NCBI GenBank assembly: GCA_021108185.1
Contig: JAIORJ010000059.1
Location: 1 to 64,000 of the forward strand
Reading direction: 5' to 3'
From: Methanococcoides sp.
GTDB taxonomy: Archaea; Halobacteriota; Methanosarcinia; Methanosarcinales; Methanosarcinaceae
DNA length: 64,000 nt
Part shown: positions 47,783-62,967 of the stretch, piece by piece
How positions within the stretch are numbered: the stretch's first letter is position 1
Layout: the number at the start of each line of letters is the position of its first letter
Position numbers and translations under genes: made by a program
Notes under the pieces: generated by a model
What the model was told of the DNA's origin: nothing
The model's input: the letters and a program-made list of their open reading frames with translations, nothing else
Databases searched by the model: none

Positions 47783-50480
<2,698 letters not shown>

Positions 50481-50910
50481 CTGTTCGTTCGGGATATATG
50501 AAGTTTCAAAGACTGCAAATTCCCAGCGCTTTCGGCTTGCTTTACATTTACCGGCAAGATTATCCGGCTCTGATGCGCGGTTAACAGTGTTAACATTCTG
50601 TAGCTTTACTTCAGTTCTTATTTATATTTACCTATCGTGACAATATATGCAAATTGCCGAAGTTTTCCCGCACTCAAATAAATTTAGTCTTCCATGATAT
50701 ATAAGAGCAATTTAATTGAGAGGGATGTATCATTATAAGTGCCAATAGCAAAAAAATAGATTCAACGCATTAGAAGTTTAGACAATAAAATACGATAACT
50801 TTTAAATAGTATTATTTTTTGCAATTTTATTGCGCAAGCTATGCTATGTAAAAATACATCTTTTGTTAACGGCGTTTACTTTAAATACTAAAAAACTTAT
50901 ATAGTAAGTA

Positions 50911-51071
50911 AAGGTCGAGAGTTATGCCGTTTCTCTTGACCTTAAGCAATATTGTCGAAAAGCCTTAACTTTTCGGGGTTGAAAAGTCGTGGGGGCTAAC
51001 CGTATTGGCATGTCTGGAACTTCAAAGTTTCAGCATGCTGATACATCAACAACTTACCATTAACATTTTTT
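50911..51071 (+). ncRNA. Probable structured small RNA
   Basis: Three hairpins follow in 126 bases: GGTCGAGAG (50913-50921) with CTCTTGACC (50933-50941); AGCC (50961-50964) with GGCT (50994-50997), enclosing CTTTTC (50969-50974) with GAAAAG (50981-50986); and GCATG-CTG-GAACTT (51008-51022) with AAGTTT-CAG-CATGC (51025-51038). Two of the stems use a G-U pair that would be A-C on the other strand, so plus is favoured. A TATA-like TTTAAATA (50881-50888) lies about 25 bases before 50911, and T6 lies at 51066-51071. No ORF fits. The class is unknown to me. The rest of the gap 50641-51220 is AT-rich. Confidence 0.55.
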
Positions 51072-51220
51072 CATCGATTATCAATTGATAGAACAAATTG
51101 TTTGTAATGTTCGATATCATCTTTACCATGGTAACTGTCCTTGTTATTACCCATTTCAAAATTCTATTTTCAACCATCAAAAAACCGCTCCATACTGGTC
51201 CCCTCACTGCACCATTTCTT

Positions 51221-52066
51221 TTAAAAGACCTTTTCCTGTTTGAAATGTACCTTACCCATCTCCAAAAAGATTCGTATCAGATGCAGATGCATATCATCGC
51301 TACCCAAATTTTCATAATACAAGAACATATTATCATCTTTGGGATGATTACTAGAGGACAAACTGCCGCACATAAAATGGGTAAAGGAATGACCTCGATA
51401 CAGATCATTGGCTCGCATAATTTCCAGTTCGTGGGTATGACCACAAAAAACGTATTCAATTTTATGTTTTTGTACAAAATCAATCAGGTCTGCGGAATTT
51501 TTTAGAGGAAATGCGTCAGTACCTAAAATAGAATAATGGGTGATCAACAAAGGCAGGTCATATTCTGTCTGTTCAATTTCTTTTGAAACAGCATTCAGGA
51601 TCTCTTTTTCAACATACCCATCATCACTGTATAGTTCATTGGTGTCGATACTGATAATTAATACAGTTTTTCCATTTATCGAAATGGATTTGATAAAATT
51701 TATATCGGTAAAATTCTCATCAACCTTGGTAATTTCTCGGTTTAAAAAAATGTTTTTCTTGCTTGTTTTTATCGTTTCAGAGATGGAGATGATCTCAGAA
51801 TTGTCAATATATTTACGGAATCGTTCATGAGAACGCATATTTCGTTTGTCATGATTGCCTAAGGTGGAAATGACATTTTTGCACTTAATTGCCTTTAGAA
51901 AATGACCCGCATCAGCACACTCATCTTCCAGACTATCTGTTGTATTGTCTCCGGTATTTATGACGATATCGGCATCAAATGAATTGATCATCTCCAGCAG
52001 AATCAGATCGTCCCCATCCCAATGACGGGGGCCGAAATGCAAATCCGAAATATGTAAAATATTCAT
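51221..52066 (-). CDS. Metallophosphoesterase (calcineurin-like)
   Basis: 281 residues. The family motifs are in order: ISDLHFG, NTGDNTTD, LGNHDKR, ITHYS and CGHTHELE. These bind two metals and hydrolyse phosphomono- or diesters. The protein is soluble, with no signal peptide. The substrate cannot be told. It is alone on the minus strand, starting at ATG 52066 with GGGGGA before it. The 296 bases upstream up to the bactofilin-like gene carry nothing else that I can support. Confidence 0.85.
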   Translation of the reverse strand: MNILHISDLHFGPRHWDGDDLILLEMINSFDADIVINTGDNTTDSLEDECADAGHFLKAIKCKNVISTLGNHDKRNMRSHERFRKYIDNSEIISISETIKTSKKNIFLNREITKVDENFTDINFIKSISINGKTVLIISIDTNELYSDDGYVEKEILNAVSKEIEQTEYDLPLLITHYSILGTDAFPLKNSADLIDFVQKHKIEYVFCGHTHELEIMRANDLYRGHSFTHFMCGSLSSSNHPKDDNMFLYYENLGSDDMHLHLIRIFLEMGKVHFKQEKVF

Positions 52067-52362
52067 TTAATCCCCCTTGTTATAATTGTTATAAATATGG
52101 AATAATAATACGACATATTCCCTTATGCTAATTATATTCACGTAGATTTGAACATGATTACCAGTTTTCTGAGCCCCCATACAAATAATTGTATGAGGTA
52201 GTATTTAGAGTTTTGAAATGGACTCATTCGTATCCCGACATGTTCCAGATCAGATGTGTCTGTCTGTACTCCACCAATTTTTAAATAAGTTATTCAAAAT
52301 TCAGAAACATTTAATAGTCATTAATATCAAACTTTACATTAAAAATTAAAAGGTGGGGTAAT

Positions 52363-53484
52363 ATGAAATTGAAAGATAGTCTATGGATGATATGCGTTAT
52401 TGTATTCTTATTGTTATCTTTAACATCTAATGCAACCGCATCCAGTATGTTCGAAAGCGGTAGCCTGGTAATCATCAATGAAACGGTAGAAGATGATGTT
52501 TACATTGCAGGTGACACCCTGATAGTGAATGGGGATGTCCTTGGAGATGTCGTAGCCGCCGGAGGTACTGTGCAGATCACCGGGAATGTATCCGGGGATC
52601 TAATTGTTACTGCAGGTGATGTGACAATTTCCGGCAACATCGGCGATGATGTAAGGATAGCCTGTGGAACTTTCAAACTTAGCGGCCTGATCGGTGACGA
52701 CCTCCTGGTAGCTGCCGGTACAGTGTCCACAACCGAGAATGCAAACATTGGCGGTGATACGACCATAAGAAGTGGCGATGCAGATCTTGCAGGAAACTTC
52801 GGAGGCTTACTGGAGGTCTCAGCAGGTTCACTGGTGCTCTCAGGTAATGTCGAAGGAGATGCAAAACTGGATTCAGCCGATATAACCATCCAACCCGATT
52901 CAAGCGTAAAAGGTAACCTGGAATACACCACCCCCGAAGAAATAACAATACCTACCGGTGTTGTAGGGGAAGATATCAAATTTGACAGGGGAGGAGAGCG
53001 CGATGACAGGTCTGATGCTGATGGAATATTCAAAGGGATAGCCATCGTTGGCAAGATCTCATATTACATCTTCCTGTTCGCTCTGGGTGTAATGTCCATC
53101 CTGGTCTTCCCGGAAAAGACCGAAGAGATCGCAAAGAAAATACAGGAAGAACCTCTCAAGAAGATCGCAGTAGGACTGCTGATACTGATAGGCTCGTTCA
53201 TAGGAGCAATCGTCCTCCTGATAACGATAATTGGCATCCCAATTGCACTCTTCCTGCTATTGATGCTGGCCATCGTCCTGGTGATCGCAAAGATATACAC
53301 TGCAATGTGGCTCGGAGAGGTAACGTTCAGAAAAGCAGGCTTCAAATATAACCAGTGGGCTGTATTGGCAGTCGGCCTCCTTATAGTATTGATATTAACA
53401 GAAATACCGTATGTAGGCGGGATCATCGGCCTTCTGGTTACACTGGTAGCAATGGGAAGTATGTACTTTGCATTGAAGAATTGA
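52363..53484 (+). CDS. Secreted bactofilin-like membrane protein
   Basis: 373 residues. After a signal-like helix (LWMICVIVFLLLSLTSNATA) comes a beta-helix of short repeats about 85-200 with turns such as GDVLGDVVAAGGTV and GNVSGDLIVTAGDVTISGN, as in polymer-forming bactofilins. The C-terminal part has four hydrophobic helices (from SYYIFLFALGVMSILVF to IIGLLVTLVAMGSMYFAL). So the beta-helix should lie outside and the protein is held by the four helices. It is monocistronic. Function is likely structural, at the cell surface. Confidence 0.75.
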   Translation: MKLKDSLWMICVIVFLLLSLTSNATASSMFESGSLVIINETVEDDVYIAGDTLIVNGDVLGDVVAAGGTVQITGNVSGDLIVTAGDVTISGNIGDDVRIACGTFKLSGLIGDDLLVAAGTVSTTENANIGGDTTIRSGDADLAGNFGGLLEVSAGSLVLSGNVEGDAKLDSADITIQPDSSVKGNLEYTTPEEITIPTGVVGEDIKFDRGGERDDRSDADGIFKGIAIVGKISYYIFLFALGVMSILVFPEKTEEIAKKIQEEPLKKIAVGLLILIGSFIGAIVLLITIIGIPIALFLLLMLAIVLVIAKIYTAMWLGEVTFRKAGFKYNQWAVLAVGLLIVLILTEIPYVGGIIGLLVTLVAMGSMYFALKN

Positions 53485-53587
53485 TGCAGGGGATGTACTT
53501 TTTATTTTTTTTAGATCATACCTGATCGTGAAATAAGCATCTACAAGAAAAGTGCTGTCTGCATAAGCAGACAACAGCATCATATCC

Positions 53588-55078
53588 TCACTCACCGTCC
53601 CCGTTGATCACTACCATGATCTCCTTGAAGCTTTCAAGGGATGCTTCGATGTTCTCGATTATCTCGTTTGCGAGAATATCAGGGTCAGGCAAGTTATCGA
53701 GGTCAGCAAGACTTGCATCCTTGAGCCAGAATATATCCAGGTTCGTCTTATCCCTTGCCACGATCTCATCATAGGTGAACTTACGGAATCGTCCTTCCGG
53801 ACTTTCGTCGCCCCAGCTTTCCTGACGACTGAACCGGTCTTCGGGATTGTAGCACTGGATAAAGTCTTCCAGATCAGAAAATTTTAGAGGGTTCTTTTTC
53901 AGCGTGTGATGTACGTTGGTCCGGTAGTCGTATATCCATACTTCCTTTGTCCACGGCTCTTTGGCTGCGGGTTTTGCTTCAAAGAAAAGCACGTTCGCCT
54001 TGACACCATTAGCATAGAAGATGCCTGTGGGCAGGCGAAGGATCGTATGCAGGTCGGTGGTCTCAAGGAGCTTCTTGCGCAAGACCTCCCCTGCACCGCC
54101 TTCGAAGAGAACATTATCCGGCAGGACCACTGCTGCCTGACCGCCTGCTTTGAGGATCGTGTGGATGTGCTGCACAAAGTTGAGCTGCTTGTTGCCTGTG
54201 GTTACCCAGAAATCCTGACGGTTGTAGGTGAGATCTTCTTTTTCAAGCTCTCCTGCATCGTTGGTGAAGGTCATACTGCTCTTCTTACCAAATGGAGGAT
54301 TGGTGAGGATGTAATCGTAACGTTCCCCTGAATCGGCTATGAGTGCGTCAGAATTGGATATCGAAGGCTCCCCGTCGATCTCCCCGATGTTGTGCAGGAA
54401 CAGGTTCATCAGTGCCAGCCTTCGGGTTCCGGCAACGATCTCATTGCCTCCGAAGGTACCGTTCTTCAGGAACCGGCTCTCCTCCCGGTCCATCTGGTTA
54501 TGCAATGTCAGGAAGTCATAGGCTGCCAAAAAGAAACCACCTGTGCCACAGCAGGGGTCACCTATTGTCTTCATGGGTTCAGGACGCAGACATTCCACCA
54601 TGGTCCTGATGAGCGGGCGAGGAGTGAAATACTGCCCGGCCCCGCTTTTGGTATCCTCTGCATTCTTCTGCAAAAGCCCTTCGTAGATCTCGCCCTTGGT
54701 ATCAACGCCCATCATTACCCAGCTTTCCTTATCGATCATATCAATGACCTTGTAAAGCATGGCAGGATCACTGACCTTGTTCTGCGCCTTGAGAAATATC
54801 TGTCCCAGCATCCCCGGCTTTTTCGCCAGCTCCTCCAGCAGCATCTTGTAATGAGTGTCAAGCTCAGCTCCACGCTTTTGCTTCAGCACGTCCCAAGTAT
54901 ATTCCTCCGGTATCCCGATATCCCGACTATAAGGCGGCTTCCTGTATTCCTCCGCCATCTTCAGGAATATGAGATATGTCAACTGCTCCAGATAATCGCC
55001 ATAGCTCACTCCCCCGTCACGCAGGACATTACAGAAGCTCCACACTTTGGAGACAATGGATGATGTATGTTCGGTCAT
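53588..55078 (-). CDS. hsdM: Type I modification methyltransferase HsdM
   Basis: 496 residues with an N-terminal helical domain, motif X/I in DPCCGTGGFFLAAYDFL, and the catalytic motif IV NPPFGKKSS. It adds N6-methyl groups to adenine in the target and needs an HsdS. It is intact here. It is the last gene of the R-(AlbA)-S-M order on the minus strand. Because the specificity subunit is broken, its activity may be lost, or guided by another HsdS elsewhere. Confidence 0.88.
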   Translation of the reverse strand: MTEHTSSIVSKVWSFCNVLRDGGVSYGDYLEQLTYLIFLKMAEEYRKPPYSRDIGIPEEYTWDVLKQKRGAELDTHYKMLLEELAKKPGMLGQIFLKAQNKVSDPAMLYKVIDMIDKESWVMMGVDTKGEIYEGLLQKNAEDTKSGAGQYFTPRPLIRTMVECLRPEPMKTIGDPCCGTGGFFLAAYDFLTLHNQMDREESRFLKNGTFGGNEIVAGTRRLALMNLFLHNIGEIDGEPSISNSDALIADSGERYDYILTNPPFGKKSSMTFTNDAGELEKEDLTYNRQDFWVTTGNKQLNFVQHIHTILKAGGQAAVVLPDNVLFEGGAGEVLRKKLLETTDLHTILRLPTGIFYANGVKANVLFFEAKPAAKEPWTKEVWIYDYRTNVHHTLKKNPLKFSDLEDFIQCYNPEDRFSRQESWGDESPEGRFRKFTYDEIVARDKTNLDIFWLKDASLADLDNLPDPDILANEIIENIEASLESFKEIMVVINGDGE

Positions 55079-55104
55079 GTTTTTTAATCCTTGATATGAG
55101 AATA

Positions 55105-56157
55105 TTATTTTTTATTCGTTTTTTCAGCCCTTATCCGTCCCAGCAATACCTCAGCCGGCTCCCAATCCGGCTCACTGCGCACCTCTTCCAGCTCCCGTTT
55201 ACTGAGCAACTTCCCCTCGAAAGCCTTTTTCAAAATACTCTGCCGCAGTGCCTCGGCCTTTTCGAGATTCTCTTCGATGTCCTGCTCAACCTTATCGCAG
55301 ACCGAAAGGCGGGTTTCGATTTCGGTGACTATGGTTTGTTGTTCTTCGATTGAACAGATTGGCAAGGTAATTAATATCATTCTTGTTAATCCCAAATCCT
55401 GATTACCTACTCCATGTGTATATTTTTGAGATTGTTTATAGCAATGAAATGAATTTAACACATGCTGCAAATAAAAAGGATATATTGACTTTACAGTTTT
55501 AAGAACAGCTACATGAACCCAAACATTAAAGTCGAAATCATAAGTATTAACTTTATCCTCTACTTCATAAGTGTAACATTCCCGACTTTCTTTTATACAC
55601 TTATTATACCACGTATTAAAATCCGCGTCCCCATAATCTGATTTGAGCGAGTCAAAAAACGGTTGATTTATATCAATCTCATGAACATAACATTTCCTCA
55701 ATAAACTATGACTTGGATAAAAACGTCGGTAAAGGGTAGTAAAATGATCGAGAGCTGAATCTATTGAAAATACTCTGTCATCAAGATTCAGCAAGTTAGC
55801 TTTTTTCCGAATCCCTCTATCTTCTGTTATGAGGAAATCGACCAGATTTTTCTTTAATGAAAAAAGAATTTCATTGTCATTTATATCATGTGAATTTGCT
55901 GGAGTGCCTACTAAAGAGATAAACTCATCATCTGGTTTAGGGGGTGAAGGAAGTCGAGGATATCCATGGAGTTTTGATAAGGTTATTCTCTTTCTTTCAA
56001 TGTCACTGTCGTTTTCTATATCATTCAGGGAAGCAGGATGAATAAACTCTTGATGACCATGTTCTCGGATTATTGATAGTAATAATTGAAGATTAGGTGA
56101 AAGTACTTTTGGATCTTGGATGTGAATTAAAATATTGGTATCATACAGAATTTTCAT
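55105..56157 (-). CDS. PIN-domain / HsdS C-terminus chimera
   Basis: 350 residues. Residues about 1-160 are a PIN domain (LYDTNILIHIQDP, IHPASLNDIENDSD, DFLITEDRGIRKK), followed to about 205 by HEIDINQPFFDSLKSDYG and FNTWYNKCIKES, typical of PIN-GNAT proteins just before their acetyltransferase. From about 212 the sequence is the end of a type I specificity subunit: part of a target-recognition domain, SIEEQQTIVTEIETRL and the long conserved helix ALRQSILKKAFEGKLL. The GNAT part and the first half of HsdS are missing. So this is an in-frame fusion of two gene fragments; the HsdS function is probably lost. Confidence 0.75.
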   Translation of the reverse strand: MKILYDTNILIHIQDPKVLSPNLQLLLSIIREHGHQEFIHPASLNDIENDSDIERKRITLSKLHGYPRLPSPPKPDDEFISLVGTPANSHDINDNEILFSLKKNLVDFLITEDRGIRKKANLLNLDDRVFSIDSALDHFTTLYRRFYPSHSLLRKCYVHEIDINQPFFDSLKSDYGDADFNTWYNKCIKESRECYTYEVEDKVNTYDFDFNVWVHVAVLKTVKSIYPFYLQHVLNSFHCYKQSQKYTHGVGNQDLGLTRMILITLPICSIEEQQTIVTEIETRLSVCDKVEQDIEENLEKAEALRQSILKKAFEGKLLSKRELEEVRSEPDWEPAEVLLGRIRAEKTNKK

Positions 56158-56358
56158 AATCCGAGTTCAACTCCATTTTGAAAGTAGCAGTATAAATTTC
56201 AAATGTAACATCCACTATAAATATATTTCATTTTGATACGATTAAACAAAAAAAACCACAGTTGAACATAGATGTTTTGTTTCTGATCTGCGGTCATCAA
56301 CAGTTCATTTAGAACTATAATTGAATGATATTTCTAATAATGTGGATTTATCTCCGAA

Positions 56359-56380
56359 CTCAAGCCGCCAAAGCCTCATT
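56359..56380. repeat. Direct repeat of the hsdR tail, copy 1
   Basis: 22 bases matching 20 of 22 to 57787-57808, the end of hsdR. Copy 1 overlaps the stop of the AlbA-type gene, copy 2 lies at its start, so the pair brackets that gene exactly. Confidence 0.6.
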
Positions 56381-57785
56381 TAATTATGTCTAAATCAACT
56401 TCCCAATGACCGCCTTTTGCAGGACCAATGCGTTTCAAAAGCCCTTTTTCTTTGAGATTGGTGATGTTGTTTTCAATTGCAGTGGTACTAATACCTATTT
56501 TGTGACTCAATTCCACAATTGATACTTTGGGGTTGTCTCTTACTTCGTTTATGATCTTCAATTGATTTTCACCCAACTTTTCACCCAACTTTTCACCCAA
56601 CTTTTCACCCAACTTTTCACCCAACTTTTCACCCAACTTTTCACCCAACTTTCCACCCAACTTTCCATCAGAAACATCCAGTCCTCTTCGGAAGATCACG
56701 GAAAAACCGGTGTCGAACTTGAAATCTACGGAAGAATTACCACTCTCATCCACGGCTTGTTTAATGCGGCTGATGCCTGTACCGACCTTTTCAATATAGT
56801 TGATGCGATTGAGGAGGGAGGCTATAAGGGGATTGCGGGCAACGCTCTTGTGGCCAAAATCAGAAGGGTTCAGACCGCTGGGCAAGCCTCCTGGGTTTGA
56901 TATCTCGACCCTGTCGTCAAAGACCTCTATAAGCACATTCGAACCACGGTCAAAATAATCACGGTGGCAGACGGCATTGATAATGGCTTCTCTCAGGGCT
57001 ACATCAGGAATATCAGGAATCTCTTCCCTTCGGATATTCTCTATCTTATATTGCACATTCGTATGCCTTTTAACAAAAAGGATAGCATTATCTATGTTCT
57101 CGACGATATTTGCCTTGAAGTCCTTCTTATCAAGGATATTCACTTTTTTCGTACCCTTGTACAGGACACAGACAACAGTAGCATGGTTCAGCAGAAAATC
57201 AATATCCTTTGCAAAGAACAGGACACCTGCATTTGTGAGCTTGCCTTCATCGTTGATGCAGTCCAGGTTTCTCAGCAGGGACATCCGGTCAATTGAACGA
57301 CTGATACCCGCCATATCCAAAAAATCTGCAAAGGCCCTATCATCAAAATCTGTCTCAAGGTCCGCCTTCTCATTCTTCAGCTCATCAAAACGAATACGCC
57401 CCTCCTTCTGGAAGAACTCAATGATCTCATTTCGTGTCAGTTTCTGGGAATTGGCACCATTGCGAATAAAAAAACCTTTCGAACAGCCATAAGGCTTGTC
57501 ACTGCCCTCCGGCACATCCACAATTATCAGATCATTTTCTACAATTATATTGACATTAAGCTGTGGCTGTAACTGCCTTAGAGAATCCTGAACCTTTGAC
57601 CTGAAACTATTATCAGTAGAGATCCCCTTCACAACACCCTTATCAGAAACGCCAAGGATGACCTTTCCACCACTGGAATTAGCAAAGGCACACACCTCTT
57701 CAACAAAGGACTTGTCAAGAGATTGCTTAAACTCTACATGATAACCTTCACCTGCTTCTATTAAATCTTCAATTGAAAAATCCAT
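56376..57785 (-). CDS. Schlafen/AlbA_2-domain ATP-binding protein
   Basis: About 469 residues. The N-terminal AlbA_2 domain has YHVEFKQSLDKSFVEEVCAFANSSGGKVILGV, given here only as the anchors EFKQSLDKS and FANSSGGKVILGV. A middle part has DVALREAIINAVCHRDYFDRGS, typical of these proteins. A KLGE repeat linker and a winged helix (IVELSHKIGISTTAIENN) end the protein. Such proteins are often in defence islands and act as DNA- or RNA-linked regulators. ATG 57785 lies two bases after the hsdR stop. It appears inserted between hsdR and hsdS. Confidence 0.75.
   Translation of the reverse strand: MDFSIEDLIEAGEGYHVEFKQSLDKSFVEEVCAFANSSGGKVILGVSDKGVVKGISTDNSFRSKVQDSLRQLQPQLNVNIIVENDLIIVDVPEGSDKPYGCSKGFFIRNGANSQKLTRNEIIEFFQKEGRIRFDELKNEKADLETDFDDRAFADFLDMAGISRSIDRMSLLRNLDCINDEGKLTNAGVLFFAKDIDFLLNHATVVCVLYKGTKKVNILDKKDFKANIVENIDNAILFVKRHTNVQYKIENIRREEIPDIPDVALREAIINAVCHRDYFDRGSNVLIEVFDDRVEISNPGGLPSGLNPSDFGHKSVARNPLIASLLNRINYIEKVGTGISRIKQAVDESGNSSVDFKFDTGFSVIFRRGLDVSDGKLGGKLGEKLGEKLGEKLGEKLGEKLGEKLGENQLKIINEVRDNPKVSIVELSHKIGISTTAIENNITNLKEKGLLKRIGPAKGGHWEVDLDIIK
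56566..56661. repeat. 12-bp tandem repeat encoding KLGE units
   Basis: TTTTCACCCAAC is repeated seven times without change (56566-56649) and once with one change, then decays. On the minus strand it encodes repeated KLGE units in the linker between the ATP-binding and winged-helix domains. The unit is a multiple of three, so changes in copy number would change linker length without a frameshift. Confidence 0.85.
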
Positions 57786-57786
57786 C

Positions 57787-57808
57787 CTCAAACCGCCAAT
57801 GCCTCATT
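57787..57808. repeat. Direct repeat of the hsdR tail, copy 2
   Basis: The true hsdR 3' end with its stop codon; matches copy 1 at 56359-56380 in 20 of 22 bases. Confidence 0.6.
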
Positions 57809-60545
57809 CAATTCACTAATAACCCCATTCATCCCATTACCAAAGAGCTGGTACATCCTGCCACGTCCACCCATAGCATCGAAGGGGGTGTAATCGAGGT
57901 CTTCGAGTTCCAGGTGGAAACTGGTGGATACGTAATCTTTTATCATTCGGAGCCAGTTCATCTGGTCTTCATTGAACTTGAGGGTTCCGGCCTGTTTGCT
58001 GAATACCCAGTTCTGGAAGTTCCGGTTCACGGTCAGGTCGTAGGCTGTAAGAATTGGGTCGATCTCGGTAATTCTGCGGATAAGGGATACCAGGGCTGTA
58101 AGCTCGTTCTTTGGGGAGTTGCCGTTGACCTTTTCCAGTTGCTCGTAGGCCTGCCAGACCCTTGAGGGTGCGAGGTGGGGTTTTTCCAGCTTTAGTTTTT
58201 CCAGCACTTCCTTGATCATCTTGAAGGTCACATCCCTGCGCTGGTAAGGCTGGTTGTAGAAGATGCTGAGGGCTGTGATCTCGTCCTTGTTGGCTTCCAT
58301 ATAGGCTTTGAAGTCATTGATTAGCTCATCTGCTTTTACAACGGCGTCCTTGTCCCACTCGGCCCTGAGGACTGTATCGAGATTCACCGTATCGATGATC
58401 TGATCATGCACCCTGCGTACGTTCTCGATATACTCATTAAGCTCTCCTGAAAAGGTCGATCTGGCAACATCGATCAACTCCTGTTGTGCCTGCTCCTTCA
58501 CCTCCTGTTCAGGCATCTGGGGTTGCTGCTGCTTTATACCGGCAGCTCTGGCATCGATTATGTCAGGATTGTAGGCACTGAACAGGTCCCTTATAGCTGC
58601 ACTGATATCCTTTCCTTTGGCCTTTTCAGCAAAGGTCGCCCTCTCATCATCGGTGATCTGTTTGTTCAGTCTTGCCAACCTGCTTGCCAGTGAGATATAA
58701 AGGTCCTCATCCTGAGCGCCAAACGTTACCGCTTCCAGCAGGGCTTTCAGGGAGATCCCTTTTTTGCGCTCCAGCGGTCTGCTGTCGGTCTTGAGGTTCT
58801 TTGTAACGCCCACGGCATCCACGATCACAAAATGCGTCTTGGCCGAAACGGTCGAGGGTGTCACCTTCTTAAGGTCATCGAACCCCATTGTCCGCGTACC
58901 TCTGCCCTTCATCTGCTCGAAATAGTTCCGGCTTTTCACATCTCTCATGAACAATAAGCATTCCAGCGGCTTAACATCCGTACCGGTAGCGATCATATCC
59001 ACCGTCACAGCAATTCTTGGATTGTAATCATTACGGAACTGCGACAGCACCGATTTAGGATCTTCCTCGACCTTGTAGGTCACCTTCTTGCAAAAAGCAT
59101 TACCTTCCCCGAACTCTTCCCGCACGGTCTGTATAATATCATCCGCATGGCTGTCGGTCTTGGCAAATATCAGCGTCTTTGGAACCTCATCCCTTCCCGG
59201 GAATATCTCAGGCAATCTATCCCTGAAGGTCCTGATCACATTACGTATCTGGCTCGGGTTGACAACATCCCTGTCAAGCTTTATTGCCAGCATACGTATA
59301 ATCCTCATCAAGCTGTTCCCAGCGCTTCCTGCGGGTAAGTTTCTCCCGCCTGTCCACGAACTCCTTTGCCTTGATTAGAGAACCGTTCTTAGTTATCTCG
59401 GTCTCAATGGTGTACACATCATACCCGACATTCACGCCATCGGCCACCGCTTCCTCATGACCGTACTCGCTAACCACATTCTCATTGAAAAAACCAAAGG
59501 TACGCTTATCCGGGGTCGCTGTCAGGCCGATCAGGAATGCATCGAAATAATCAATGACCTGCTGCCACAGGTTGTAGATGGAACGGTGGCACTCATCAAC
59601 CACAATAAAATCAAACTCCTCAATAGGAATGCTCGCATTATAGACAACCGGAAGCGGTTCCTTTTTCTGCCAGTCCTTCTCAGCAGGATTCTGAGTTTCG
59701 GCTTCATCGTCCAACTCCTCACCCTTAAGGATGGAATACAGACGCTGGATGGTGGAGATACACACCTGACTGTCCGAAGAGATATAATTGGAACGTAAAC
59801 GCTGCACATTGTACAGCTCAGTGAATTTACGATTATCGTCATTTGGCATATAGGCCATGAATTCCTGCTCTGCCTGCTCCCCCAGATTTCTGGTATCAAC
59901 AAGGAACAGTATCTTTTTAGCATCCGCATATTTTAGCAAGCGGTAAATAAAAGTGACAGCAGTATAGGTTTTCCCGGAACCTGTCGCCATCTGTACCAAA
60001 GCCTTTGGGCGATTGTCCTTGAAGGACCTCTCCAGATTTTCAATTGCCATTATCTGGCAATCACGCAGACCCTCGGTCTTTAACTCTGGTAGAGAAAGTA
60101 ACCTTTCCCTTAATGACATCTCCTTTTTAAGATAGGGAGCGAATGTCTCCGGCCGATGAAAAGAGAAAACTTGCCTTGACCGGGGTTTAGGATCACGCTG
60201 GTCAGTATATCTGGTCAGCTTTCCGGTACTCTCATAAATAAAAGGAAGCGGATCATTGTTCAGGTATTTCAGTTTGCTCGTAGCATATTCACCTGCCTGC
60301 TCTTCAACAACGGTCAGATGGTGACCTTCCTCATCCTTTTTAGCTTCAATGATACCAACAGGTCTTTTGTTAACAAAAAGCACATAATCAGCCGGTCCCA
60401 CCTCGGTAGAATACTCCTTAACAGCAATGCCACGGGAAGTATTCCAATCAACCTCATTTTTTTTCAGAACTTTCCAGCCGGAATCAGTTAATTTTTTATC
60501 GATGCTATCCCTGGCTTTCTGTTCCGGATTCTGATTATCACTCAT
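57788..60545 (-). pseudogene. hsdR: Type I restriction subunit HsdR, frameshifted
   Basis: Two frames together give about 918 residues. The 5' part (60545 to about 59281) has the nuclease domain (GIIEAKKDEE), Walker A ATGSGKTYTAV and DECHRS; the 3' part continues with NPSQIRNVIRTFRDRL and helicase motifs FAKTDSHADD and GRGTRTMGF to the end at 57788. The break is in a run of three A on the minus strand (T at 59280-59282): one A too many turns AGNKLDRDV into a short stop. It could be a real mutation or a sequence error. HsdR translocates and cuts DNA. Confidence 0.85.
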
Positions 60546-60694
60546 ATATTTGTGCCCATTGAAGTTTTTAACTCTTATTTGTCTGGGATCAAGCTGTCAA
60601 TGATGACATTAGCTCATTCTGGCAACAGTTCTATAGTCACAATTGATATAAAAATGATTTCTTTTAGATTTTCGAAAGGACCTATAAAAAAAGC

Positions 60695-62614
60695 TCATTC
60701 CTCATTTCCATCAACTTCCCCACTATCCCTAACCTTTGGAAGCCTGATATGAACAGTGGTCCCCTTATGGGGTTCGCTCTCGATCCAGATCTCACCGGAA
60801 TGAGCATCAACGATCTTTTTACATATGTAGAGACCCAGGCCTGTCCCACCGTATTTTCGTCTTATGGACGAATCGATCTGGTAGAACTTCTTGAACAGGT
60901 TTGGGATCAACTCTTTGGGAATACCGATGCCAGTGTCACTGACAGTGAGGTGCAGGTCCTTTTCTTCATCAGATACTCCGAGGGTGATCATACCACCGGG
61001 AGGAGAGAACTTGATGGCGTTATCGACTATGTTGTTCAGCATATCGACCAGATGGGCTTCATCGGCTTCGATGGTTGGGATATCTGAAGGTATTTTCTTT
61101 TCGATATGGAGATCGTTCGCTTCAACGAGCATGATGGTATCCATAATGGTGTCGCTTATTATTTTTGCTATATGACACTCTTTGAATTTGTATTCAATTA
61201 TCTCTGCCTGTGCCTGGCTTATATATAGCAAGGAATTTACCAGACGCCTGAGTCTGTCTGCATTGCGAAGCACGGCTTCAAGTGATGCTTTTTGTGGGCT
61301 GTTGATATCACCCAGGGACTCATCATACACATTCTGAGTATAGCCTTTAATACTGGTAAGCGGTGTCCTTAGCTCATGGCTGACATTTGAGAGGAAAACA
61401 TCCTTCATCTGGTCCAGTGATTTGAGCTCCTTATTAGCTTTTTCCAGATCATCCGAATAGATCTGTAGCGAATCAAGGATGTCATTCAGCCCAGAGGGTA
61501 TCTTCCTGAAATCCACTCCCACATCCGTCTCAGCTCTCCTGTTCAGATCACCTTTCAGGGCAGAATTCGAGATGTCTTCAAAATTGGAAACGATCTCATT
61601 TATCGGACGGGTTATGGACATAGCAACGAGATAGGCTGCACCTGCCATGAAAATAAGTGCAAGCGATGAGATGAGTATAAGTTCATTCCGCAGGGCTGTG
61701 ACATCTGAGAGCATGTCCTCTTTCGGGATCACCAGAATAAAAGAATAATTACCTGTATGTACCGGCTCATAGAAGATGATCACATCCTCCCCTGTGGTCG
61801 GGTCAACTGTCTCTATATTGCCCCCCTGCCCGACAAGGATATCATCCGCCATGATCGCGATTTCAGGATCGTTGAAATCATAAAGGGTCTTCATCCCGAT
61901 CCATTCTTTGTGCACAGGATGGGACAACAGTATACCGGTATTACTTGTAGTGAAAGCATAACCTGCCTCAAAGGCAGTAACATTGGAAACGATCTCATCA
62001 ATATAGTTGAGCGATACATCAACACCACCAATACCAACGAACTCATCCTCCCTTATTATCGGGGATACGTAGCTCACAATAAGCTCTCCCTGATACAGAT
62101 ATGGCTCTGTCAGCACTTCCTGCTCAAGTTGTTTTGGCAATTGATAGTAATCGGAGGTTTCATAGTCAATAAGCGGTTCCACGAACATGGTACCACCGAT
62201 CTTGTTCCAATAGGGTACAAGCCGACCTGTGGAATCATAACCCTCAGTGCCTGCATATTCAGCATCCTTTCCATCAAAGGCATTGGGTTCAAAACCCGTA
62301 TAGGTACCGATCAGATTGGGATTATCGATGAGCACTTCCCTTAGAATATCATTGACCTCATCCCTGTCAGAGGAATTGTAAACGGTCAGCGTGTTTTCAA
62401 TTGTCCTTGCAATGGCCATGTTCGACTGCATATCCGAATTGAACTGGTTTGCATAGTTGCTTGATTTCTCTATGGACTTCTTATATGCAAGCTCCTCATA
62501 CTGGGATGTGCTAGTGGAAATAATGATAGCTGTAGTAGCAGCCATCACTAAAAGAACACTGAACCCTATGTACAGGATCAATTTCACTTTTAGAGGTACA
62601 TCATCCATTTTCAT
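60695..62614 (-). CDS. Cache-domain sensor histidine kinase
   Basis: About 639 residues. One helix near 15-35, an outer double Cache sensor to about 300 (with GGVDVSLNYIDEIVSN), a second helix near 318-340, HAMP, then HisKA with SNVSHELRTPLTSIKGY and HATPase with NNIVDNAIKFSP, DTGIGIP and GGTGLGLYI. All key residues are present, so it is a probable active kinase. No response regulator adjoins. I prefer ATG 62614 because GGTGTCC precedes it; GTG 62623 is possible. Confidence 0.88.
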   Translation of the reverse strand: MKMDDVPLKVKLILYIGFSVLLVMAATTAIIISTSTSQYEELAYKKSIEKSSNYANQFNSDMQSNMAIARTIENTLTVYNSSDRDEVNDILREVLIDNPNLIGTYTGFEPNAFDGKDAEYAGTEGYDSTGRLVPYWNKIGGTMFVEPLIDYETSDYYQLPKQLEQEVLTEPYLYQGELIVSYVSPIIREDEFVGIGGVDVSLNYIDEIVSNVTAFEAGYAFTTSNTGILLSHPVHKEWIGMKTLYDFNDPEIAIMADDILVGQGGNIETVDPTTGEDVIIFYEPVHTGNYSFILVIPKEDMLSDVTALRNELILISSLALIFMAGAAYLVAMSITRPINEIVSNFEDISNSALKGDLNRRAETDVGVDFRKIPSGLNDILDSLQIYSDDLEKANKELKSLDQMKDVFLSNVSHELRTPLTSIKGYTQNVYDESLGDINSPQKASLEAVLRNADRLRRLVNSLLYISQAQAEIIEYKFKECHIAKIISDTIMDTIMLVEANDLHIEKKIPSDIPTIEADEAHLVDMLNNIVDNAIKFSPPGGMITLGVSDEEKDLHLTVSDTGIGIPKELIPNLFKKFYQIDSSIRRKYGGTGLGLYICKKIVDAHSGEIWIESEPHKGTTVHIRLPKVRDSGEVDGNEE

Positions 62615-62967
62615 GCCGGACACCTTACTGGAAGCACACAGAATTCACATCAATTAGATCAAATTATCGGAAGGCAGAAACTCAAAGGAAAGCACACAGC
62701 TCCATTATGTAACGGTTGCACTAACCTCAATCCCCATTATTACATTTGAATAACTATCGTATAAATGCCTACCTGTTGCAACTATTCAGCACCCCCATAA
62801 ACGACATCATAGGATAGATCCATATGGGGTAAAACTTCCTCCGCATATCATTCCGATCATAAAAAATAGGTTGTTATTTAGAACTGGTCTTATGCCCTTA
62901 GTTTTTGTTGCAGTTCTGATAGGATCGGACAAAACTAAGAACACTTATATTTATTTTGAGTGACAAA

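Follow-up and report, generated by a model that had tools for sequence, protein, structure and literature searches.

Related Systems

The closest described system is the subject of a paper that we take to be Bell et al. 2020, referred to below as PMC7641849. PIN-GNAT-EVE proteins encoded beside type I restriction-modification (R-M) operons, with a near-constant ASCH partner, are already described in that paper, as is an ASCH-HsdS fusion from Methanohalophilus; according to the same 2020 paper, none of its modules was experimentally characterised (PMC7641849). The gene discussed here lies in the window, i.e., the whole 64,000-nucleotide stretch of Methanococcoides sp. DNA that was analysed, and it resembles the described module in several respects: its N-terminal half is the start of a protein of the same family (PDC-M11A), its operon, with hsdR, a Schlafen/AlbA-RecG-like gene and hsdM, fits the published neighbourhood (PMC7641849), and in the relatives of the window HsdS begins with the ASCH domain (PDC-M11B), an arrangement already known from Methanohalophilus. 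Unlike the described module, however, the window copy has only the beginning of GNAT and half of TRD2, with EVE, ASCH and TRD1 gone, so that PIN is joined to the HsdS tail.

A further comparison is offered by single-TRD HsdS proteins that work as homodimers, e.g., truncated EcoDXXI (reviewed in PMC3874165). As in that case, the C-terminal HsdS fragment of the window, with its helix, adjoins an intact hsdM; however, the working forms have one complete TRD (PMC3874165), whereas TRD2 in the window starts only after about 75 of its 168 profile positions, and a foreign PIN/GNAT fragment stands in front of this remnant.

The Fusion Gene and Its Join

The fusion gene (55105-56157, minus strand), recognised by ORF reading and family profile matches, is a single uninterrupted frame of 350 codons, from the ATG at 56157 to the stop at 55105, and it joins a PIN-GNAT-EVE N-terminus to an HsdS C-terminus. 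The PIN-GNAT-EVE-derived part (55553-56157, minus strand; residues 1 to about 202), as delimited by the profile match and by alignment with relatives (L042-L058), contains the entire PIN domain and the start of GNAT. Residues 1-203 match PADLOC PDC-M11A with E=7e-56 over profile positions 1-201 of 501, and the conserved acidic N-terminal PIN domain of this family is present, with D6, N8, D94, E96, E112 and D113 invariant across 15 aligned sequences, the window copy included. The alignment then ends at about residue 204, inside the region that corresponds to Acetyltransf_10 (173-296 in L063), and the EVE domain of the family is absent both from the ORF and from the assembly to which it belongs.

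The HsdS-derived part (55105-55546, minus strand), identified by profile and relatives, comprises the second half of TRD2, the conserved C-terminal helix region and the tail, and has 85-87% amino acid identity with the hsdS products of genomes G155 and G158 (L060, L061). Residues 246-350 match the type I specificity subunit profile of PADLOC (Specificity_I, E=1e-28) and residues 247-346 match EcoKI HsdS (2y7c, E=4e-11); from the sequence, the conserved C-terminal helix and the tail appear to be retained. Pfam Methylase_S aligns to residues 206-299 over profile positions 76-167 of 168 only, scoring 18.7 bits where 22 are required, so that the fusion has one partial TRD instead of the two, each with a conserved helix after it, that HsdS requires. 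A DUF596 Pfam match spanning the join (15.6 bits vs. a cut-off of 25) was put down to chance. AlphaFold modelled the fusion poorly as a whole, with too low a confidence for a fold search (mean pLDDT 47.6, 19 fragments) and the lowest values at residues 201-269.

The join was mapped by aligning the gene to four PIN-GNAT-EVE genes and to the hsdS genes of G155 and G158. Up to about gene position 605, nucleotide identity to the PIN-GNAT-EVE genes is 73-93%, and that to hsdS is close to background; past the join, it is 73-100% to the two hsdS genes and at background to PIN-GNAT-EVE. Position 605 fits PIN-GNAT-EVE only and position 612 fits hsdS only, while positions 606-611, a 6-nt AGTTAA microhomology (window 55547-55552, minus strand), fit both parents and are common to the fusion, the four PIN-GNAT-EVE relatives and the two hsdS relatives. 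By a hand calculation, six or more shared bases would be found in about 0.1-0.3% of random joins, a figure that is indicative only, since the aligned parents are proxies. In the AlphaFold model of full-length PIN-GNAT-EVE (mean pLDDT 43.9, 5 sequences; local pLDDT about 70), the join falls between the strands at 193-199 and 202-212 of GNAT, and in HsdS it falls in the middle of TRD2; both partners are thus cut mid-fold.

The preliminary description of this gene as an in-frame PIN/HsdS fusion is borne out by the single 350-aa frame, the profile match of each half and the sharp switch of identity, and its estimate of the join, at 55,500-55,560, was right. It had derived the N-terminal half from a PIN-GNAT protein with its acetyltransferase lost: the PIN half and the loss of GNAT hold, but the partner is a PIN-GNAT-EVE protein, and EVE was lost too. 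Likewise, the C-terminal part is indeed an HsdS tail, but less than the C-terminal half that had been proposed, because of the missing TRD2 positions.

Intact Relatives

Searches with the PIN half covered 186 genomes of the same order, 39 of them with matches, and 238 genomes of the same class, 49 of them with matches. Matches outside the window end at query residue 205 or thereabouts, or before, and most of them lie in frames of 450-530 codons; no PIN match continuing into HsdS was seen besides the window among the 238 class genomes, nor in the scan of genome contigs. Ten loci (L042-L048, L050-L052) contain an intact PIN-GNAT-EVE gene of 494-502 aa, followed, with an overlap of 35-50 nt, by an hsdS of 608-714 aa. 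This long hsdS is followed by an accessory gene (of the GmrSD type or a second one of the Schlafen type), by hsdM, or by both in this order. On the upstream side, in contigs that extend far enough, lies hsdR, often together with the same Schlafen gene as in the window; the operon order in relatives is hsdR, (Schlafen/AlbA), PIN-GNAT-EVE, ASCH::hsdS, hsdM. The Pfam matches of GNAT (173-296, Acetyltransf_10, in L063) and EVE (372-479) in the PIN-GNAT-EVE proteins are weak.

The additional N-terminal residues of the long hsdS, about 130, form an ASCH domain (PDC-M11B E=2e-49 in L063; Pfam E=7e-5 in L042), which in more distant relatives has an ORF of its own, of 127-168 aa, between PIN-GNAT-EVE and hsdS. 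The ASCH::HsdS fusion, published so far for Methanohalophilus, occurs directly after PIN-GNAT-EVE in at least five genera of Methanosarcinaceae (L042-L052; e.g., L063:7454-9499). The closest relatives of the two halves of the window gene belong to different genomes, and no PIN gene was found in the loci of the nearest hsdS parents (G155, G158), so that the exact parental locus is unseen.

The Operon and the Missing Pieces

The fusion gene is accompanied on the same strand by hsdM, a Schlafen/AlbA_2-RecG-C-HTH gene and hsdR, the latter in two frames. hsdM (53588-55078, minus strand; 496 aa), assigned by profile match, is intact and has 97.6% amino acid identity with that of G096. The accessory gene with Schlafen/AlbA_2, RecG-C-like and HTH regions (56376-57791, minus strand), assigned by Pfam and relatives, has a TTG start and overlaps the end of hsdR. 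Both parts of hsdR were assigned by profiles and relatives: the 5′ part is a 423-aa frame (59274-60545, minus strand), and the 3′ part a 507-aa frame (57788-59311, minus strand), cut off from it by a frameshift. Comparison with the intact hsdR of G096 (95% nucleotide identity) attributes the split to a 1-nt insertion, an extra A near 59282; the site (window 59274-59311) reads AATAAAGC vs. AATAAGC in G096, a run too short for a typical homopolymer sequencing error.

The lost segments were sought in the genome of the window itself, a draft assembly of 230 contigs that is 97.45% complete. Neither a GNAT-EVE query nor an ASCH (PDC-M11B) query had a match there, while both gave strong matches in the control genomes G096, G118 and G095, and no copy of the lost parts was found elsewhere in the window or in the genome. 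With full-length HsdS of L060 as the query, the sole significant match in the genome was the tail, two other matches being insignificant; the genome has two further hsdS genes, of other types, on contigs C5 and C85, so that no complete specificity subunit of matching type is available to the hsdM of the operon. Of the R-M set, hsdM is whole, hsdR is frameshifted and a full hsdS of the same type is absent from the genome.

Origin of the Fusion

The preliminary description had left the choice between a recombination scar and a new hybrid. The fusion gene is very probably a scar left by an in-frame deletion in an R-M locus undergoing decay, since its parents adjoin and overlap in ten intact relatives, the sequence lost is one contiguous piece, and a 6-nt microhomology in mid-domain marks the join. 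The ancestral operon would have had the order hsdR - Schlafen/AlbA - PIN-GNAT-EVE - ASCH::hsdS (or hsdS) - hsdM, as in relatives, and a single deletion between two AGTTAA copies, one in the GNAT part of PIN-GNAT-EVE and one in TRD2 of the adjoining hsdS, would have taken out everything from within GNAT, through EVE, ASCH and TRD1, to the middle of TRD2. In intact loci, the gene pair spans 2227-2542 nt more than the fusion, which puts the putative deletion at about 2.2-2.5 kb. Points against a scar are the preservation of the frame across the join, a dN/dS of the PIN half no higher than among relatives, and the loci of the nearest hsdS parents (G155, G158), in which no PIN gene was found; the ends would have been rejoined in frame by luck, with a 1-in-3 chance. 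The product would be expected to have neither DNA recognition nor acetyltransferase function, which would leave HsdM without a usable specificity subunit; for this reason, and given the frameshift in hsdR, the restriction system, judged from its genes, is most likely dead.

A chimera produced by assembly or amplification, in which a misjoin linked distinct genes or the haplotypes of two strains, might be suspected in a draft of so many contigs, and the nearest relatives of the two halves do come from different genomes. It is nevertheless improbable: the 6 nt shared at the join are far below an assembler k-mer and too short to mislead an assembler, the parent genes are natural neighbours in the same order and orientation, and the lost pieces are on no other contig, while a misjoin would normally leave them somewhere. 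Moreover, on both sides, in hsdM and hsdR, the sequence runs collinear with that of G096 and is 93-94% identical to it.

In the new hybrid, for which no positive support was obtained, the C-terminal helix of HsdS would bring a PIN nuclease onto HsdM, and this nuclease would cut RNA or DNA at the methyltransferase or close to it. The open frame through the join, the retention of the family-invariant PIN residues and of the C-terminal helix and tail, and the intact hsdM agree with such a function, as does a dN/dS that is not elevated: the values for the window PIN half against relatives are 0.08-0.22, compared with 0.08-0.25 among relatives, and those of the HsdS tail are likewise low and within the range of the relatives, giving no sign of relaxed selection. 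A low dN/dS, however, would be explained by a recent deletion as well as by a constrained fusion, and a functional hybrid is very improbable, given that GNAT and TRD2 are both cut mid-fold, that TRD1 and half of TRD2 are absent while the working single-TRD S homodimers have a whole TRD (PMC3874165), that the fusion was found in no relative searched, and that hsdR is frameshifted. That the protein is made and active, with PIN anchored to HsdM so that a dead restriction system has become a methyltransferase-tethered nuclease, is hardly to be expected. Full-length relatives in a known family, which the preliminary description had named as grounds for rejecting its claim, were found for each parent gene but not for the fusion.

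The fusion is best taken as an ordinary in-frame deletion remnant of an already known defence operon, and as a scar it is of little importance in itself. It advises caution, in that in-frame gene fusions in draft methanogen genomes are not to be taken for new domain architectures, and it leads to the intact system, PIN-GNAT-EVE with its ASCH partner built into HsdS, which is the more interesting object.

Other Features of the Locus and Its Relatives

Two short frames were considered as further cases of the fusion and rejected: in the 351-aa frame of G186, PIN-GNAT-EVE is broken later and the EVE half and ASCH are still downstream, and the short frame of G074 is due to the contig end. Three of the four same-genus PIN-GNAT-EVE copies, the window included, are broken past the PIN domain, which may be chance. 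In the gene of G096 (L049:9856-11343), codon 177 is an in-frame TAG, which may encode pyrrolysine in Methanosarcinaceae; that of G097 (L059:851-2324) has a frameshift near codon 220-230, and that of G186 (L082:1130-2605) a break near codon 347. In G095, a 565-aa ORF (L084:5664-7361) with an N-terminal ASCH followed by GNAT and an EVE-like region, i.e., an ASCH-GNAT-EVE protein, lies directly after the PIN-GNAT-EVE gene, with no hsdS nearby.

In the comparison of G096 (L049) with window 52295-62698, the PIN part is 80% identical, vs. the 93-94% of the hsdM and hsdR flanks, and G096 has no Schlafen gene ahead of PIN; the dS of the PIN half to L042-L044 is 0.56-0.64, below the hsdM dS to L042 of 1.03. 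Taken together, these values suggest that the middle block (Schlafen, PIN-GNAT-EVE, hsdS) may have been exchanged horizontally.

An Rfam search of 50000-62700 gave no match, and the counts of promoter-like and terminator-like sites were little above chance expectation. The Schlafen/AlbA gene contains a 12-nt tandem repeat (window 56566-56664; 8.2 copies), corresponding to LGEK repeats between the RecG-C-like and HTH regions; since the repeat keeps the frame, changes in its copy number would alter the length of the linker.
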